From: Pseudonocardia sp.
GTDB taxonomy: Bacteria; Actinomycetota; Actinomycetes; Mycobacteriales; Pseudonocardiaceae
DNA length: 14,735 nucleotides
Assembly: GCA_030453005.1 (NCBI GenBank)
Contig: JAKDLE010000013.1
Span: 1 to 14,735 of the forward strand
Reading direction: 5' to 3'
The notes under the pieces are model-generated. The model did not search any database. It was not told the origin of the DNA and saw only the letters and a list, made by a program, of their open reading frames with translations. Shown piece after piece: positions 4,916 through 14,708 of this stretch (positions are counted from its first letter, which is position 1; each line of letters begins with the position of its first letter). The translations under genes and the position numbers were made by a program.

Positions 4916-4972
4916 CTCACCGGGAGCGGTGACCGACGTTTGGACGCCGTCGGGGTGGACACCCGTGGCGAC

Positions 4973-6022
4973 ATGCGGATCGTGGTCGTGGGCGCCACCG
5001 GGAACGTCGGGACGAGTGTGGTCGCGGCGTTGGCCGCCGAGCCCGCGGTGACCTCGGTACTGGGGATCGCCCGGCGGCTGCCCGGGTGGCGCCCGGAGAA
5101 GACCACGTGGGCCGCGGCCGACATCGTCCGCGACGACCTCACCGGGCACTTCCGCGGCGCCGACGCGGTGGTGCACCTGGCGTGGCTCTTCCAACCCACC
5201 CACGACACCGTCCGCACGTGGCGGAACAACGTCCTCGGCGGGATCCGCGTGCTGCGCGCGGTCTGCGACGCGGGGGTCCCCGCGCTCGCCTACGCCTCCT
5301 CGGTCGGCGCCTACTCCCCCGGCCCCAAGGACCGTCCCGTCGACGAGAGTTGGCCGACGAACGGATGGCCGACCGCGGGCTACACGCGGGAGAAGGCCTA
5401 CCTGGAGCGGGTGCTGGACACGGTCGAACGCGAGCGCCCGGACCTGCGGGTGGTGCGGATGCGCCCCGGCTTCATCTTCAAGCGCGAGGCGGCGGTCGGG
5501 CAGCGCCGGTTGTTCGCGGGCCCGCTGCTGCCCCAGAGCCTGGCGAGGCCCGGACTGGTGCCCGTCCTGCCGCAGCTACCCGGGCTGCGCTTCCAGGCCC
5601 TGCACTCGGCCGACGTCGCGGAGGCCTTCCGGCTGGCGCTCCTGCGTCCCGTGCACGGTGCGTTCAACCTCGCGGCCGACCCGGTCGTCGACACGGCCGA
5701 GCTGGCGCGGCTGCTGCGCGCCCGACCGGTACGGGTACCCACCCCCGCGGTCCGGGCCGCGCTCGCCGCGGCCTGGCGGCTGCACCTCGTCCCGGCGTCG
5801 CCCGATCTGTTCGACGCCGTGCTGGGACTTCCCGTCATGGACTCCGCACGCGCACGCGACGAGCTCGGATGGCGGCCGCGGCACAGCTCGCTGCACGCTC
5901 TGGGCGAGCTCCTCGAGGGGCTACGCGAGGGCACCGGGATGGACACCCCGCCCCTGTCCCCGGCCACCAGCGGGCCCGCGCGCCTCCACGAGTTCCGGAC
6001 CGGGATCGGCTCCCGGCCCTGA
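4973..6022 (+). CDS. NAD(P)-dependent epimerase/dehydratase (extended SDR)
   Basis: I chose the ATG at 4973 because the Rossmann strand begins immediately (MRIVVVGATGNVGTSVV); the 11-codon extension to 4940 has no domain character. The product is 349 aa. G7-x-x-G10-x-x-G13 is the nucleotide-binding glycine motif. The catalytic set is present: a Ser in LAYASSVGAYSPG (about residues 106-116) and Tyr137/Lys141 in GYTREKAY. The C-terminal substrate domain (about 180-320) contains RMRPGFIFKREAAVG and HSADVAEAFRLAL, both usual in extended SDRs. It should oxidise, reduce or epimerise a hydroxylated substrate, probably a nucleotide sugar or similar, but the substrate cannot be read from the sequence. 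It ends six bases from the convergent peroxiredoxin-like gene, with no room for a separate terminator. Confidence 0.88.
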   Translation: MRIVVVGATGNVGTSVVAALAAEPAVTSVLGIARRLPGWRPEKTTWAAADIVRDDLTGHFRGADAVVHLAWLFQPTHDTVRTWRNNVLGGIRVLRAVCDAGVPALAYASSVGAYSPGPKDRPVDESWPTNGWPTAGYTREKAYLERVLDTVERERPDLRVVRMRPGFIFKREAAVGQRRLFAGPLLPQSLARPGLVPVLPQLPGLRFQALHSADVAEAFRLALLRPVHGAFNLAADPVVDTAELARLLRARPVRVPTPAVRAALAAAWRLHLVPASPDLFDAVLGLPVMDSARARDELGWRPRHSSLHALGELLEGLREGTGMDTPPLSPATSGPARLHEFRTGIGSRP

Positions 6023-6028
6023 CCCCGT

Positions 6029-6571
6029 TCATCCTGTCTCGATGTGCCCACGCGCCCGTGCGGAGCGGGCGACGAGGCCGGGCGCGGCTCGGTCGTCGGG
6101 GGTGGCGGGGCGCCAGAGCCGCTCGACCCGCCCGTCGACGAGCAGGGCGTCGCCGCCCATCTGGCGGGTGTCCTCGACGGGTCGGTGCAGCGTCCGGCCG
6201 CGCAGCTTCCAGATCGCGTAGCGGGCCAGTGTGCCCGGGGAGTACACCCGCCATACCGGGGCCCGTCGCAGGCCGAGCCGTCGGTAGAGCCGCCGGTCGG
6301 TGTCGGAGAGCACTGCTCCGGTCAGGCCGAGGTGGTCGGCCAGTGGCGCGAGCGCTTCGGCCGGGCTGAACCCGACCACGACCAGCGGGATCCGCCCGGC
6401 GAGCTCCTGTTGCACCTGAACCAGATGCTCCTGACAGGGCAGTCAGAACCGGTGCCGGATCAGGCTCACGACCTGCACGCCGGACAGCCCGCCCAGGTCG
6501 ACCGGAGCTCCCGTCCGGACATCGGTCAACACGATGCCGCTGAGCTCGACGGCGGTGGGTTCCTCACGCAC
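6029..6571 (-). CDS. Peroxiredoxin-like (AhpC-TSA_2/PRX_like2) protein with in-frame TGA: candidate selenoprotein
   Basis: Read from the GTG at 6571, with GAGGA at 6577-6581 five bases upstream, the frame runs 180 codons to the TGA at 6029-6031 with one interruption, a TGA at 6443-6445 (codon 43). Before it the sequence is VVSLIRHRF; after it comes LPCQEHLVQVQQELAGRIPL. The TGA therefore replaces the first Cys of the CxxC redox motif of this thioredoxin-fold family, giving U43-L-P-C46. The remainder matches the family: PLVVVGFSPAE, SDTDRRLYRRLGLRRAPVWR, a GGDALLV strand and a C-terminal helix. Total length is normal (~180 aa). Such proteins are cytosolic thiol/selenol redox enzymes, expected to reduce peroxides or disulfides. 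A SECIS-like hairpin follows the TGA. The start overlaps the upstream TOBE fragment's stop by eight bases (GTGCGTGA), suggesting translational coupling. The alternative is a single nonsense mutation in a pseudogene. A conventional call would keep only 6029-6415. Confidence 0.75.
6406..6445 (-). promoter_or_regulatory. Candidate bacterial SECIS element following in-frame TGA
   Basis: On the minus-strand mRNA, UGA (6445-6443) is followed by 4 bases, then CCUGU (6438-6434), CAGGA, GCAUCUG (6428-6422), loop GUU (6421-6419), CAGGUGC (6418-6412), A, ACAGG (6410-6406). The upper stem is 7 bp with one G-U pair and the lower stem is 5 bp. The apical loop starts 21 nt after the UGA and its first base is G. 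Known bacterial SECIS elements have a short apical loop with a G in its first two positions, about 16-37 nt after the UGA. This match is by eye, without a folding energy. Confidence 0.6.
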
Positions 6572-6809
6572 GGGCGTCCTCGTTCTCGGTGGTCGGGGCG
6601 GTGGCGGCCACCGGCGTGGCGGTGAGCCCGGCCCCGCCCGCGGTGGTCACGACAGTGCGGTGGGTCCCCCGAAACCGGGCCTCGCACACAACCGTGGCCG
6701 TCACGGTGTTGGGGGCGCCCTCGGCGCGGAGGATCCGTAGCGACTCCGGGCGGACCACGAGCACGCCGGGTCCGTCGGGGGCGGGCACGCCCACATGATT
6801 CCGCCTCAC
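6564..6809 (-). pseudogene. ABC transporter ATPase C-terminal (TOBE-type) remnant
   Basis: The frame reads GVPAPDGPGVLVVRPESLRI, then APNTVTATVVCEARFRGTHR and TVVTTAGGAGLTATP before the TGA at 6564-6566. 'VRPESLRL....PNTV.G.V....FRGTH' is the usual TOBE_2 ending of spermidine/putrescine- or iron-type ABC transporter ATPases (PotA/FbpC class). The Walker motifs, signature motif and everything else N-terminal are missing, so only ~75 residues of a ~350-residue protein remain. The fragment directly abuts the DUF427 remnant through a GTGA overlap (6806-6809), and its own stop overlaps the start of the peroxiredoxin-like gene. It may still be translated and could couple translation into that gene, but it cannot act as a transporter ATPase. 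Confidence 0.7.
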
Positions 6810-7050
6810 TCGGACTGGACCTCGACCCCGCCCGCGAACACGACCCGTCCCTTCGCCCGACGGGCGAGCGGAAGGGGACGCCGGTAGGACGAGGCGGCGT
6901 CGGGCAGAGGCACCCCGTCCACGATGAGCGAGTGGTAGCGGGCGACGCCCTTCCAGGGCACACGGTGGTGGTCGAACTCGGGGTCAGCGCGCCGGGCTGC
7001 ACCGACGACATCGGGAAGTAGACGTTGTCCTCCACCATCACCACGTACAC
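6806..7050 (-). pseudogene. DUF427-family gene, 5'-truncated and frameshifted
   Basis: From the GTG at 7050 (GAGGG seven bases upstream) the frame reads VYVVMVEDNVYFPMSSVQPG and then LTPSSTTTVCP. At 6955-6958 it must shift by one base to continue WKGVARYHSLIVDGVPLPDA and then RAKGRVVFAGGVEVQSE, ending at the TGA at 6806-6808. The combined protein carries the DUF427 signature: 'VEGNxYFP', 'PS.T.TVCPWKG.A.Y', 'DAAW.Y..P', 'G.VAF..GVEV'. Adding one C to the CCC run at 6956-6958 would restore 'TVCPWKG' exactly, so a one-base deletion (or a sequencing error) explains the break. The N-terminal ~15-20 residues normally found before 'VEGN.YFP' are also missing. DUF427 proteins have no settled function. 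Confidence 0.75.
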
Positions 7051-7229
7051 CGCGTTACCCTCGCGGGATCGACGCGCGAGACCCGGGAGGTGGCGGTGGA
7101 TCGGCGATGGCCGTTCGGCGTCTGCCCGGTCGTCGGGCTGGACCACGACGGTGAGGTGGTCGACATCGCCGCCCCGGACGGCTGTCGGAGAAGGATCGTG
7201 AGCGAATCGGCTCGATCGGACGCGCTGGT
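7051..7229. other. Short region without an identifiable gene
   Basis: This lies between the DUF427 remnant (-) and the zwf remnant (+). Frames are open on both strands but match no family I recognise. It is likely deletion-scar sequence between the two decayed genes. Confidence 0.4.
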
Positions 7230-8797: not shown

Positions 8798-8821
8798 AGC
8801 GGCTATCTCTCAGGAGCCGCT
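8798..8821. terminator. Possible bidirectional terminator between the kinase and cbbX
   Basis: AGCGGCT (8798-8804) and AGCCGCT (8815-8821) form a 7-bp stem around a 10-base loop, between two converging genes and overlapping the last codons of cbbX. There is no T-tract, as is usual in actinobacteria. The stem is short, so this is tentative. Confidence 0.35.
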
Positions 8822-9850
8822 CTCGGCGACCGCCGCCGCACCCCCCGCGAACACCCGGCTGCCGCTGAAGTCGACCGCCTCGAAGGTCGTCAGGGCGTCT
8901 CTGCCCACCGTCGGGTCCGGCCCGTCGAGCAACCGGCGGGCGTGCCGCAGCCGGGCGCGCTCGAGTGCGTTGCGCACACTGCGGGCGTTGGCGAACCAGG
9001 GCTGCTCGATGCGCCGTTCCAGATAGGAGTGGAACGTGTCGAACGCCTGGTCGGAGAACGTGTAGCCGAGGTCGTCGGCCATCAGCGTCGCGATGGACCC
9101 CAGCTCGTCGACCGCGTAGTCGGCGAACGTGATGTGGTGCGCAATCCGTGAGCTCATGCCCGGGTTGGCCCGGAAGAAGGTGTCCATCCGGTCGGCGTAG
9201 CCTGCCAGCACCACCACCAGGTCGTCGCGGTTGTTCTCCATCACCTGCAGCAGGATCTCGATGGACTCGCCGCCGTAGTCGCGCTCGTTGTCGGCCTTGT
9301 AGAGGTAGTAGGCCTCGTCGATGAACAGCAGGCCGCCCATCGCCCGCTTGATCACCTCCTTGGTCTTGGGCGCGGTGTGGCCGACGTACTGGCCGACGAG
9401 GTCGTCGCGCGAGGCGGTGACCAGGTGCCCCTTGCGCAGGTACCCGAGCCGGTGCAGCAGGTCGGCCATCCGCAGCGCGACGGTCGTCTTGCCGGTGCCG
9501 GGGCTGCCGGTGAACGACATGTGCAGGTTCGGCTGCGGTGCGGTGATGCCGAACCTCTCGCGGGCGCGGTCGATCAGCAGCAGCGCGGCGAGCTCGCTGA
9601 TGCGGGACTTGACGTCCGCGAGCCCGACCAGCTCCCGGTCCAGCGCGGTGAGCACCTCGTCGGCTCCGCTCGCCCGGCGCAGCTCGGCCAGGTCCACCAC
9701 GGCGTCGTCGTCGAGGACGACGGCCGCGGCCTCGGCCTCCTCGGCCTCCCGCCGGTGGTCGGCCGCGGTGGGCATCCCGAAGCCCGCCCGCGGCCCCGAG
9801 TCGCTACCCGAGGCCGCCGTCACCGCGCCGTTGCGGTCAGCCCCGGCCAT
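8810..9850 (-). CDS. cbbX: CbbX, red-type Rubisco activase (AAA+ ATPase)
   Basis: CbbX remodels inhibited red-type Rubisco, using ATP to pull on the large-subunit C-terminal tail and release tightly bound sugar phosphates. The sequence shows Walker A GSPGTGKT (residues 115-122), pore-loop sequence [14 protein letters not shown] (about 153-166), Walker [13 protein letters not shown] (173-184), and the family block [20 protein letters not shown]. The later [12 protein letters not shown] carries the arginine-finger/sensor region. It is 346 aa from the ATG at 9850, about 30-45 residues longer than typical because of an Ala/Glu-rich N-terminus; a shorter start at the internal ATG at 9775 is possible. 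The ATG overlaps the end of cbbS by 14 bases, so translation is probably coupled. It is the last gene of the operon. Confidence 0.93.
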
Positions 9851-10262
9851 AGCGGTCGCCGGTCGGTTGCCCGGCCGCGTAGGCGTGGGTGGAGTACCGG
9901 ATCTGCCGGTCCCCGACCTCCTGACGGTCCAGGCGGAACCCCGGCTCGTGGGCGGGACGCTGCACGATGAACGACAGCGCGGTGGTCTGACGGCCCAGGC
10001 TCGCGTCGTAGGCGTTGACCTTGATGTAGTGGTCGGGGTAGGCCTCCCGGCAGGCGGTGACCTCCAACATGACCCCGGCCGGGTCCTTGAGGTCGAACAT
10101 CGGCAGGCCCCACATCTCCCAGTAGGTGTTGCGCGGGTGCGGGTCGTCGGTGAACTCCACCGACAGCGGCCAGCCGTTATCCAGGCAGTACCCGATCTGG
10201 GCGAGGATCTCCTCGTCGCTCAGCTCGGGCAGGTAGGAGAACGTGCCCTGTGTGATGCGCAT
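9837..10262 (-). CDS. cbbS: Ribulose-bisphosphate carboxylase small subunit
   Basis: The ATG at 10262 begins [20 protein letters not shown], the standard red-type small-subunit N-terminus. AGGA lies in the twelve bases before it, and the 32-codon extension upstream is Ser/Thr/Pro noise overlapping the cbbL end. The product is 141 aa. It contains [19 protein letters not shown], then [17 protein letters not shown] and [20 protein letters not shown]. The C-terminal extension ([20 protein letters not shown] and beyond) is the long beta-hairpin tail typical of Form IC/ID small subunits, which helps the holoenzyme assemble without dedicated chaperones. It pairs with the large subunit encoded 28 bases upstream to form the L8S8 enzyme. 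Confidence 0.94.
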
Positions 10263-10290
10263 GGTGTTCCTGTCCGTTTCGCGGTCGGGG

Positions 10291-11796
<1,506 letters not shown>

Positions 11797-12672
11797 TCAG
11801 TTGAGCGAGCTCCGCCGCTCCATGAGCCGCCAGATCATCGGCGTGAAGATCAGCTGCATGGCCAGGTCCATCTTCCCGCCCGGACAGACGATGGTGTTCG
11901 GCCGGGACATGAACGAGTCGTGCAGCATCGAGAGCAGATACGGGAAGTCGATGCCCGCGGGCCGGGCGAACCGGATCACCAGCATCGACTCGTCCGCGGT
12001 GGGGATCGTCCGGGCGATGAACGGGTTGGACGTGTCGACGACGGGCACCCGCTGGAAGTTGACGTGGGTGCGCGAGAACTGCGGTGCGATGTAGTGCACG
12101 TAGTCGGGCATCCGGCGCAGGATCGTCTCCATCACGGCCTCGGTCGAGTACCCGCGCTCCGCCTTGTCGCGCTGCACCTTCTGGATCCACTCCAGGTTGA
12201 TCACGGGGACGACGCCGACGAGCAGGTCGGCGTGCCGGGCGACGTCGACCTCGTCGGTGGCGACGGCGCCGTGCAGCCCCTCGTAGAACAGCAGGTCCGC
12301 GCCGGGCTCCAGCTCATCCCACGGGGTGAAGGTGCCCGGCGACTGCTGGTACGGCGCCGCCTCGCCCTCGTCGTGCAGGTACTTGCGGACCTTCCCGGTC
12401 CCCGACTCGCCGAAGGTCGCGAACAGGTTCTCCAGCTCGTCGAACAGGTTGGAGTCGGGGCCGAAGTGGCTGAACGTGTGGTCGTCGTGCTCGAGCGCCT
12501 CGGTCATCCGCGCCTTCATCTCGGCGCGGTCGTACCGATGGAAGCTGTCCCCCTCGACGTAGGCCGCCTTGATGTCCTCGCGGCGGAAGATCTGCTGGAA
12601 CGTGCGCATCACCGACGAGGTACCGGCGCCGGACGCGCCGGTGACGGCGATGACGGGGTGTCGACTCGACAT
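11797..12672 (-). CDS. cbbP: Phosphoribulokinase
   Basis: The enzyme phosphorylates ribulose-5-phosphate with ATP to give the Rubisco substrate ribulose-1,5-bisphosphate. The ATG at 12672 gives 291 aa, the usual length for the proteobacterial-type enzyme. The P-loop is GASGAGTSSV (residues 12-21). The family block YVEGDSFHRYDRAEMK contains catalytic Asp42. Further signature segments are HDDHTFSHFGPDSN, the Walker-B-like LLFYEGLHGA (Glu131), INLEWIQKVQRDKAERGYS and MPDYVHYIAPQFSRTHVNFQ. It lies 42 bases after the fructose bisphosphatase gene and 75 bases before cbbL, all on one strand. The gene is probably co-transcribed with the upstream phosphatase, possibly reading through into cbbL. Confidence 0.94.
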   Translation of the reverse strand: MSSRHPVIAVTGASGAGTSSVMRTFQQIFRREDIKAAYVEGDSFHRYDRAEMKARMTEALEHDDHTFSHFGPDSNLFDELENLFATFGESGTGKVRKYLHDEGEAAPYQQSPGTFTPWDELEPGADLLFYEGLHGAVATDEVDVARHADLLVGVVPVINLEWIQKVQRDKAERGYSTEAVMETILRRMPDYVHYIAPQFSRTHVNFQRVPVVDTSNPFIARTIPTADESMLVIRFARPAGIDFPYLLSMLHDSFMSRPNTIVCPGGKMDLAMQLIFTPMIWRLMERRSSLN

Positions 12673-12714
12673 GGGGCTCGCTGTGTCCTCTCCGGGGCTG
12701 TCTCGGAACGTGCG

Positions 12715-13785
12715 TCAGGTGCCTGCGCGGAACAGGCCGCGGTTCCCGAACAGTGGGGGGCGGCTGTGCGCGTCGGGATCACCGGCGTACATCTGCTCGA
12801 TGCGCTCGACCTCGTCGCGCGCCCCGAACACCAGCGGGATCCGCTGGTGCAGCCCCTCGGGGAGCACGTCGAGGATCCGGTGGCGTCCGGTGCCCGCCCG
12901 GCCGCCCGCCTGCTCGACGAGGAACGCGATCGGTGACGCCTCGTAGAGCAGGCGCAGCCGTCCGGCCCTGGCCGGGTCCTTGGTGTCGCGGGGGTAGAGG
13001 AACACCCCGCCGCGGGTGAGGATGCGGTGCAGCTCCGCGACCGCGGAGGCGACCCAGCGCATGTTGTAGTCCTTGCCCCGGGGTCCGGACCGGCCGGCGA
13101 GGCACTCGTCGACGTAGCGGCGCACGGGCGGCTCCCAGAAGCGTCGGTTCGACGCGTTGATCGCGAACTCCGACGCGGTCTCGGGGATCGCCAGGTCGCG
13201 CCGGGTCAGCAGGAACTCCCCCAGCTCCGGGTCGAGGGTGAACGCGTGCACGCCGGTGCCGACGCTGAGCACCAGCACCGTGGACGGGCCGTAGATCGCG
13301 TAGCCTGCGCAGACCTGCCGCGACCCGGGCTGCAGGAAGTCCGCGGCGACGGCGTCGCGGCCCGGTTCGGGCGCCCGCAGGACCGAGAAGATGCTGCCCA
13401 CCGAGACGTTGACGTCGATGTTGGACGAGCCGTCGAGCGGGTCGAACACCAGCAGGTACTTCCCCCGCGGGTACTGCGGCGGGATCGGGTGCGGATCGTC
13501 GAGCTCCTCGGACACCATCCCGGCCAGCAGCCCGCTGCGCTCGTTGACCTTCAGGAACACCTCGTTGGCCAGGACGTCGAGCTTCTGCTGGGTCTCGCCC
13601 TGCACGTTGGTCGTCGGCTCCGCGCCGAGTACGCCGCCCAACGCCCCGTAGGCGATGCGCTTCGAGATGGCCTTGCAGACGAGCGCGACGTCGAGGATCA
13701 CCGCGTTCAGCTCGCCGCTCGCGCCTGGGTGATGGCTGCGCTGCTCGATCAGGAATCGGGCGAGCGTCGTCCGGTGGGCCACCAT
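12715..13785 (-). CDS. fbp: Class I fructose-1,6-bisphosphatase
   Basis: It hydrolyses fructose-1,6-bisphosphate to fructose-6-phosphate, feeding ribulose regeneration and gluconeogenesis. The ATG at 13785 is preceded by a strong GGAGGA (13791-13796), so the longer frame to 13800 is rejected. The product is 356 aa. The metal-site glutamates lie in MVSEELDD (Glu93, Glu94) and the signature [20 protein letters not shown] places Asp115, Asp118 and Asp124. Further class I features are [18 protein letters not shown], the substrate-binding [22 protein letters not shown] region (about residues 225-246) and [17 protein letters not shown]. In cbb operons this gene is called cbbF. It is followed after 42 bases by phosphoribulokinase, an operon-like arrangement. 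Confidence 0.95.
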
Positions 13786-13941
13786 CGCGGTCCTCCCCAC
13801 GCCGTGCCCGGCCCCCGGGACCGGGGGATTCCGGACGGGCGCGTCGGGGCTCGATCAGCCGAACCTAGGTACGGGACCTCCCCCCCGCCATCCCCCGCAC
13901 CGGTGGACGGCGGGGGGAGATCGCCTCGGTGCGGGCACCGG
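13786..13941. other. 156-bp gap between cbbY-like and fbp genes
   Basis: The gap holds the strong ribosome binding site of fbp, a quasi-palindrome CCCCCGG-GA-CCGGGGG (13812-13827) and the long G/C hairpin listed separately. A promoter for fbp may lie here (for example around TACCTAGGTT on the minus strand near 13863-13872), but no hexamers are clear. Confidence 0.45.
13879..13919 (-). terminator. G/C hairpin downstream of the cbbY-like gene
   Basis: CT-C7-GCC (13879-13889) faces GGC-G6-AG (13909-13919), an 11-bp stem with one bulged base and a 19-base loop that itself contains CACCGGTG. It begins 22 bases past the cbbY-like stop codon on the minus strand. There is no T-tract. It could end or attenuate that transcript before fbp. 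Confidence 0.5.
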
Positions 13942-14640
13942 TCACCGCGGGCCGGGTGCCTGCCCGGCCAGCAGGGCGGCGCAGCGGTCGGCGTCCAGCC
14001 CGTCGAATCCGGGCAGGACCGCCGCCGCACCCGCGAACGCCTGCGCCGCGGTGTAGTCGTTGGTGACGACGAGGCAGGACAGACCGGCACGGCGCGCCGC
14101 CTGCAGGCCCGGCGGGGAGCCCTCGACGGCGAGCACCTCGACGGCGGGGACCCCGAGCCCGGCGAGCGCCCGAAGATAGGCGTCGGGCGCCGGTTTGAGC
14201 TGCTCGACGTCGTCGCCGGTGACGACCACGTCGAATCCGTCGAGACCGAACAGCCGGTCCAGCAGGGACAGCACCCAGGCGCGGCGGCCGGTCGTGGCGA
14301 CCCCGAGACGGACCCCGCGACCACGCAGGTCGGCCAGCAGCTCGTCGACTCCCGGCCTGCTGAGCAGCGGGCCCGACCGGACCCACTCCAGGAAGTGCGC
14401 GGTCTTGGCGCGGTGCAGCACCTGCGCCGTGCCCGCCGGGTCGGGGTGCCCGGCACCGGTCAGGAACTCCTCGAGGCGCTGCAGGCCGCCGGTGGTGGCG
14501 AGCAGGCGTCCGTACTCCTGCGCGCCCCAGCGGTGGTCGAGCCCGAGCTCGGCGAACGCCCGGTTGAACGCGGGCCGGTGCCCGTCGCGCTCGGTGTCGG
14601 CGAGCGTCCCGTCGACGTCGAGGATGACTGCGGACAGCAC
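13942..14640 (-). CDS. cbbY: CbbY-like HAD-superfamily sugar-phosphate phosphatase
   Basis: CbbY removes the 1-phosphate from xylulose-1,5-bisphosphate, a Rubisco misfire product that inhibits the enzyme. The hallmark ILDVDGTLADTERDGHRPAF combines HAD motif I (nucleophile and acid-base Asp in DVDGT) with the CbbY-specific ADTERDGHRPAFNRAF. Motif II is ATTGR (Thr), motif III the Lys in VEQLKPAPDAY, and motif IV is changed from the usual 'EDS' to AVEGSPPGLQAARRAG, so one acidic metal ligand appears to be Gly. GTG at 14640 (VLSAVILDVDG, 232 aa) is chosen because the family begins right at that strand; an upstream GTG at 14691 would add 17 residues without domain character. It is the first cbb gene in the direction of transcription, separated from fbp by 156 bases and a hairpin. 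Confidence 0.85.
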   Translation of the reverse strand: MLSAVILDVDGTLADTERDGHRPAFNRAFAELGLDHRWGAQEYGRLLATTGGLQRLEEFLTGAGHPDPAGTAQVLHRAKTAHFLEWVRSGPLLSRPGVDELLADLRGRGVRLGVATTGRRAWVLSLLDRLFGLDGFDVVVTGDDVEQLKPAPDAYLRALAGLGVPAVEVLAVEGSPPGLQAARRAGLSCLVVTNDYTAAQAFAGAAAVLPGFDGLDADRCAALLAGQAPGPR

Positions 14641-14683
14641 GAAACGATGCTCAGTGCTCGCCGACGGATAGCACCCGATTCGT

Positions 14684-14708
14684 CTGGCCACCCTGAACCG
14701 CTGGCCAG
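14684..14708. repeat. 7-bp inverted repeat upstream of cbbY-like gene (possible operator)
   Basis: CTGGCCA (14684-14690) and TGGCCAG (14702-14708) are exact reverse complements separated by 11 bases; the same words also read as a direct repeat 17 bases apart. The centre lies about 55 bases before the chosen GTG. The spacing and position suit a dimeric repressor or activator, but no regulator can be named. Confidence 0.4.

Follow-up and report, generated by a model that had tools for sequence, protein, structure and literature searches.

SelL is characterized by a UxxU motif, and PRXL2 is a name for the AhpC-TSA_2 group (PF13911; cd02970). Peroxiredoxin-like (Prx-like) selenoproteins have been described repeatedly: SelL is treated as one in PMC2398784, Table 1 of PMC13188914 lists Prx-like proteins with UxxC or UxxU motifs (PF00578) as thiol:disulfide oxidoreductases, and a "ULPU-containing selenoprotein" is tabulated in PMC5029168. 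The tables of a 2022 and a 2026 review (PMC9312934, PMC13188914) also contain a PF13911/cd02970 selenoprotein, with a UxxS motif. Furthermore, the use of UAG as a selenocysteine (Sec) codon together with a CUA tRNA-Sec has already been published for Geodermatophilaceae, including an AhpC of Blastococcus saxobsidens (PMC5330540).

Here we examine a gene in a 14,735-nucleotide stretch of DNA from Pseudonocardia sp. (contig JAKDLE010000013.1; "the window"). We conclude with high confidence that a Pseudonocardia-type bacterium has a genuine selenoprotein gene at 6571-6029 on the minus strand, in which UGA at codon 43 would be read as Sec under the direction of a hairpin to give a redox protein of peroxiredoxin fold. 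The features of the locus are as follows.

6029..6571, minus strand: complete reading frame of the proposed selenoprotein, an AhpC-TSA_2 / SelL-related Prx-like protein; GTG start at 6571, stop TGA at 6031-6029, 180 residues with the internal TGA read as a residue.
6443..6445, minus strand: in-frame TGA, codon 43, the presumed Sec codon (U of RHRF-U-LPC), from read-through translation and codon conservation.
6434..6436, minus strand: codon 46, Cys, the putative resolving cysteine of the UxxC motif, from translation and alignment with human PGF synthase.
6577..6581, minus strand: GAGGA resembling a ribosome binding site, 5 nt ahead of the GTG, from the sequence.
6029..6415, minus strand: 128-aa open reading frame (ORF) reported by the standard gene caller, beginning past the motif; a misannotation, from the ORF listing and database protein P0003.
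6412..6428, minus strand: candidate bacterial SECIS hairpin GCAUCUG-GUU-CAGGUGC, with 7 bp and a 3-nt loop starting with G, in the coding region 15-31 nt past the TGA.
6406..6438, minus strand: possible 5-bp outer stem around the hairpin (CCUGU 6438-6434 with ACAGG 6410-6406), seen in this one sequence only.
6564..6809, minus strand: remnant of an upstream ABC-transporter ATPase that keeps just the TOBE end and has an internal deletion; the selenoprotein gene starts within its tail.
4940-6022: epimerase gene, convergent, downstream of the selenoprotein gene.

An earlier note on this DNA had proposed a frame open for 180 codons except for one TGA, a GAGGA ribosome binding site and a standard annotation confined to a 128-aa fragment past the motif. 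All three proposals hold, with the addition that the frame runs on the minus strand, which that note had not given. The TGA, in the context LIRHRF-U-LPCQEHLVQVQ, is the single internal stop in the 180 codons. The further claim that no other lesion is present is correct for the selenoprotein gene itself but not upstream of it, where the ABC-transporter ATPase gene has been reduced to the remnant listed above. In comparisons with four congeners, dN/dS was 0.22-0.29 for 110 codons downstream of the TGA and 0.31, 0.35, 0.44 and 0.81 over the 42 codons ahead of it. The truncated annotation recurs among homologues: 402 were found, and in 112 of the 120 matches listed the length is 106-142 aa. P0040, P0057 and P0083, whose letters we inspected, start directly after the motif. 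Since Sec forms are cut in this way, protein databases are biased to the Cys forms.

Codon 43 was read in the genomic DNA of relatives. Species genomes were scanned with the peptide patterns EDTRQ[LM]G[GA]D and RHR[FHY]xLPCQ[EQ] (x, any residue), which are blind to the residue at this position. The scan yielded 48 loci, of which L104 and L109 lack the N-terminal part and fall outside the count; the codon was TGA in 45 of the 46 alignable loci, TAG in one and Cys in none. The best segments of the TGA-bearing loci are 31-76% identical to the query, and the loci lie in records titled Pseudonocardia, other Pseudonocardiales, Acidimicrobiales, Acidobacteriota and Chloroflexia. Searches of the genus and the family, in which several loci are the same genes as those of the species-genome scan so that the counts overlap, matched the gene in 10 of 62 and 19 of 390 genomes, respectively, the window's own included in both. 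Codon 43 was readable in 16 of the 18 other gene-matching family genomes and was TGA in all 16; G027 has a degenerate C-terminal copy only (L015), and the gene of G261 is cut by a contig end. The codon counts leave out L015, L017, L019 (apparently the same as L104), L104, L109 and L136, for which no alignment at codon 43 was possible. Each gene matched in the genus and the family contains one TGA.

A profile search across the phylum (396 genomes) gave 17 matches beside the window's own gene, with TGA at the motif in 17 of 17; in two of them, L166 and L168, another stop occurs right where the match ends. The motif searches had recovered L153 alone of these 17 loci, and the profile search then placed them all. 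A search at class level (394 genomes) gave nothing beyond the window's own gene. In both profile searches the best 8 candidates per genome were scored, so that weaker relatives, such as Cys forms, may be missed. The distant Sec-type relatives in other Actinomycetota (L152, L154-L168) have motifs such as RHAG-U-LIC, RYVG-U-LLC and RHYG-U-PFC, all with TGA, and look like part of a large under-annotated Sec family; RHNH-U-LPC is a further motif among the phylum matches. These counts bear out the earlier argument that a chance nonsense mutation would be improbable at exactly this codon, and they answer the question, posed with it, of whether homologues have Cys or TGA here.

Cys homologues do exist among predicted proteins. 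P0066, P0069, P0082, P0087 and P0088 have the same motif in the form RHRHCLPCQ, with the TGA aligning to its first Cys, and P0007 has C-L-L-C; the Cys homologues that we inspected are full length. In a tree of 39 + 17 sequences, six Cys tips are nested in Sec groups, although several nodes are weakly supported and the sampling is uneven. The position of these tips suggests that Sec came first and Cys later. Two database proteins, P0008 (RHRF-W-LPC) and P0104 (RHRH-W-LPC), have Trp at the Sec place, which may be the gene caller's translation of TGA. Genome G023 contains three copies (L010, L016 and L019, apparently L084, L086 and L104 of P. nigra), two of them full length with TGA and one without the N-terminal part. 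The G050 homologue (L014 / L018) has a repeat of GAVGT units inserted shortly past the motif, with the frame kept.

The one locus with TAG at codon 43 (L096) belongs to Modestobacter sp. DSM 44400, and the tRNA-Sec of this organism has a corresponding change. Its match to the Rfam tRNA-Sec model (L143) scores 66.9 bits, against a cut-off of 47, and has the anticodon CTA, which is why ARAGORN names it tRNA-Pyl. When tRNA-Sec was sought in 12 named gene-bearing genomes, 11 were positive by Rfam and tRNA shape, ten with the anticodon TCA and one, Modestobacter, with CTA; all 20 tRNA-Sec genes fetched from the genus have TCA. Thus, the codon at site 43 changes with the anticodon of the tRNA, and unless the site is Sec this is difficult to account for. 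The AhpC of Blastococcus saxobsidens resembles this case, by the description in PMC5330540, in its Geodermatophilaceae host, its CUA tRNA-Sec, its UAG Sec codon and its AhpC-type protein, and it may be of the same family as L096; the 48 loci of our species-genome scan include none from Blastococcus.

The read-through protein matched Pfam AhpC-TSA_2 (PF13911) at 29.1 bits, above the gathering score of 27, and the 128-aa piece matched at 29.2. Against PF00578 it scored 17.3 bits, below the cut-off of 26, which 6 of 10 other members tested exceeded. NCBIfam NF040769, "SelL-related redox protein", gave 78.5 bits (E 4.7e-22), below its curated cut-off of 120; ten diverse members all matched this model, eight of them below the cut-off and two (L117 and L127) above. 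An AlphaFold2 model built from 30 aligned sequences has a mean pLDDT of 95 and a thioredoxin/peroxiredoxin topology, in which strand 32-37 is followed by helix 44-57 directly past residue 43, so that the predicted active residue stands at the start of helix 1, as in this fold generally. Foldseek returned human prostamide/PGF synthase C44S/C47S as the best PDB match (E 2e-8, TM 0.63 by query, 21% identity); the next matches were thiol peroxidases, BcpB and TlpA/ResA-type proteins. In a profile alignment with the human enzyme (E 7e-4), U43 is matched to C44 and C46 to C47. The earlier description of a peroxiredoxin-like enzyme therefore stands as an assignment of fold, based on AlphaFold2 and Foldseek, while the enzyme activity is presumed.

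These comparisons place the protein near several described groups. It shares the overall family of SelL by the NF040769 profile but scores below the curated cut-off and has one Sec, in U-L-P-C, where SelL proper has two in UxxU. It also belongs with PRXL2 / AhpC-TSA_2 by its PF13911 score and by human PGF synthase being the best PDB match in both sequence and fold, yet it is bacterial, is only about 20% identical to that enzyme and would have Sec in place of its Cys. The PF13911/cd02970 selenoprotein in the tables of PMC9312934 and PMC13188914 differs in having UxxS rather than UxxC. The PF00578 proteins tabulated in PMC13188914 have the same UxxC motif on a peroxiredoxin-like domain, whereas the window protein lies under the PF00578 cut-off. 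The window protein is best described as belonging to a remote branch, in which Sec predominates, of the SelL-related / AhpC-TSA_2 family. We did not find a PF13911-type ULPC Sec clade of actinobacteria in the passages covered of PMC13188914, PMC9312934, PMC2398784 and PMC5029168; the main text of the deep-Sep paper (PMC12013277), in the portion covered, contains no AhpC, peroxiredoxin or UxxC; and the open-licence literature searched gave no report that combines Acidimicrobi with both selenoprotein and selenocysteine. The clade is probably a new subfamily of an already known kind of selenoprotein. The candidate had been announced as a new selenoprotein, a description that has to be narrowed: the protein is from a distant branch of a known family, and Prx-like selenoproteins with UxxC and UxxU motifs are already in reviews.

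A bacterial SECIS element is a hairpin shortly downstream of the UGA with a G in its apical loop, and such a hairpin is present in the window gene. If the U of UGA is numbered 1, positions 18-34 in most near relatives form the hairpin GCACCUG-GUC-CAGGUGC or one very like it. Because HLVQV written in GC-rich codons tends to form a palindrome, we tested the hairpin against synonymous-codon shuffles that used each gene's own codons, in 31 near-group genes with the distant ones left out and with rows treated as independent. The pooled score was 554, compared with 388 ± 20 in the shuffles and a shuffle maximum of 454.5 among 1000. For single genes the test is weak (fractions 0.038-0.523, 0.128 for the window gene, and below 0.05 in 2 of 31). 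Thus, in the pooled test, the hairpin is kept in near relatives beyond synonymous codon choice.

Covariation was less uniform. Pairs were counted in 32 of the 54 rows of the hairpin comparison: pair 18-34 is G-C in 28 and C-G in 3, and the innermost pair, 24-28, is G-C in 22, C-G in 1 and unpaired in 9. The covariation score of 0.096 was above all 500 shuffles, but a control slid by -1 scored higher (0.128), and in 88 of 500 shuffles at least as many pairs had changed on both sides. The isolated window hairpin folds as drawn at -8.7 kcal/mol, a value reached by 0 of 200 shuffles, and a 36-nt stretch folds with the hairpin and the outer stem (z -1.5; 17 of 200 shuffles as good), but longer windows of 47-70 nt around the hairpin prefer other minimum-energy structures (z -0.3 to -1.2). 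It is thus conservation and the pooled synonymous-codon test, rather than folding energy, that speak for the hairpin. Rfam SECIS families gave no match at the gathering threshold across the window, and a search of 6330-6460 up to E 5 gave three chance matches with no SECIS family among them. Among 17 distant rows (L110, L112-L127), the best hairpin is placed elsewhere in 14, six of these with the loop at +27; the near-identical L117, L118 and L120 have a hairpin in the usual position, with a GUC loop and a 7-bp stem of another sequence.

We then considered whether the host can decode Sec. The earlier note had named selA, selB, selD and tRNA-Sec as the genes to look for, and had taken the absence of selB and tRNA-Sec as a mark of a pseudogene. 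No match to selA, selB or tRNA-Sec was found in the window's own assembly; this negative result is formal, and since the assembly is a draft of 1058 contigs with 72% completeness, the absence test is weak here. Weak tRNA-Sec matches in this genome were rejected, as they are tRNA-Cys, tRNA-Leu, tRNA-Met and two tRNA-Ser genes. The second, EF-Tu-like match of the SelB search is missing as well, which says little, because it is also missing from G051 at 95% completeness. Since its own assembly is without these matches, we infer, rather than observe, Sec decoding in the window's organism. Its congeners do have the machinery: of 62 genus genomes, 55 gave SelA and 56 gave tRNA-Sec, and every one of the nine gene-bearing congeners has both tRNA-Sec and a match to SelA (a fragment only in G051), with SelB above the cut-off in five, just below it in three and absent in G051. 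Co-occurrence of the gene with tRNA-Sec inside the genus was discarded as uninformative, given the 56 of 62 genomes with tRNA-Sec. In the family, tRNA-Sec occurs in 271 of 390 genomes, the window's own being without it, and the gene-bearing genomes other than the window's own have it in 18 of 18 cases, compared with 271 of 389 overall (hypergeometric P=0.0013, kinship ignored). Segeticoccus rhizosphaerae (L108, G395) is an exception: it has an intact TGA gene with the hairpin, its genome gave no SelA, and its sole match to the tRNA-Sec model above the cut-off (49.6 bits) is a tRNA-Ser. A contaminating contig, a recent loss or an incomplete draft may account for this. Taken together, codon conservation, the UAG/CUA case, the hairpin and the co-occurrence with tRNA-Sec strongly support Sec at the first position of the CxxC-type motif, and with it the selenocysteine reading of codon 43 proposed earlier.

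The neighbourhood of the gene varies. In Pseudonocardia L081, a solute-binding protein and a TOBE-domain ABC ATPase lie upstream of it; elsewhere, pyridine-nucleotide disulfide oxidoreductases (L085, L112), MFS transporters (L085, L096) or an ArsP-type permease and a VTT-domain protein (L083) are nearby. A conserved operon partner was rejected, as neighbours vary beyond L081, and we therefore draw no function from context. In the window, upstream of the ABC remnant, the sequence at 6810-7146 (minus strand) is split over two frames, one of which was tested and gave no Pfam match; it resembles a DUF427-type protein and appears to be a frameshifted or decayed gene. A Calvin-cycle group at 8810-14691 (minus strand) encodes an AAA protein, presumably CbbX-like, the small and large chains of RuBisCO, phosphoribulokinase, fructose bisphosphatase and a HAD hydrolase, and the host is probably a carbon-fixing relative of Pseudonocardia.

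Among other accounts of the locus, the one with most to recommend it is that the gene is a selenoprotein gene by descent that is no longer decoded here, a recent relic in a lineage whose Sec machinery is gone or disappearing. The empty searches of the window's own assembly and the adjoining ATPase remnant would fit such a loss, and the degenerate copy in G027 and the Segeticoccus gene, found without selA or tRNA-Sec, provide precedents. We nevertheless consider it unlikely: the assembly is just 72% complete in a genus where SelA and tRNA-Sec are nearly general, and the gene is intact over 180 codons, with constrained codons past the TGA and a hairpin that still pairs. An ordinary pseudogene, in which a random nonsense mutation struck the gene of a Cys enzyme, is much less probable still. 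TGC or TGT becomes TGA in one step, some relatives have Cys and the adjoining gene is broken, but TGA is kept at this codon in loci of several phyla down to 31% identity, and the only alternative is TAG with a matching CTA tRNA; we reject this account on codon conservation.

Slightly less credible again is a true termination at the TGA, with a restart at GTG 6415 making the 128-aa protein of the databases the functional product. Most of the listed matches have the size of such pieces, and AhpC-TSA_2 scores the piece no lower than the whole; yet a product of this kind would, by the predicted fold, miss strands, the helix start and both catalytic residues, all before residue 53, and codons 1-42 keep a conserved frame and sequence, in line with the full length of the inspected Cys homologues. 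Least probable of all is a reading of UGA as tryptophan or by leaky read-through. The tryptophans of P0008 and P0104 could be cited for it, although these are perhaps a TGA-as-Trp translation by the gene caller, while the TAG/CTA pairing, the Cys homologues and the tRNA-Sec co-occurrence point to Sec, and the genus and family genes each have one TGA.

On the preferred reading, that of a decoded selenoprotein gene, the ribosome would read UGA at codon 43 as selenocysteine, directed by the hairpin 15-31 nt downstream in the coding region and its recognition by SelB. The product would be a 180-residue single-domain protein of thioredoxin/peroxiredoxin fold, in which Sec43 stands where helix 1 starts and Cys46 lies one turn further along. 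As with Sec insertion in this organism itself, we infer the redox chemistry, the substrate and the reductant: the Sec selenolate would most likely attack a peroxide or disulfide-like substrate, Cys46 would resolve Sec43 by forming a selenenylsulfide with it, and recycling would fall to a thiol or flavoprotein system of the cell. The wider history is a matter on which we are evenly divided, namely that the gene belongs to an overlooked large PRXL2/SelL-like clade in which Sec is ancestral and near-obligate throughout Actinomycetota, copies also occurring in assemblies of Acidobacteriota and Chloroflexia; in this clade Cys would have been derived from Sec several times, and UGA would have changed to UAG together with the tRNA in a Geodermatophilaceae lineage.

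Standard annotation misses selenoproteins, as this family shows clearly: 112 of the 120 listed homologues are sized as truncated pieces. The family would add a further Sec enzyme to those of Sec-using actinobacteria, a bacterial relative of the eukaryotic group of prostamide/PGF synthase with Sec in the catalytic place. The natural pair of UGA and UAG codons at one site would also be useful for studying how Sec codons change.
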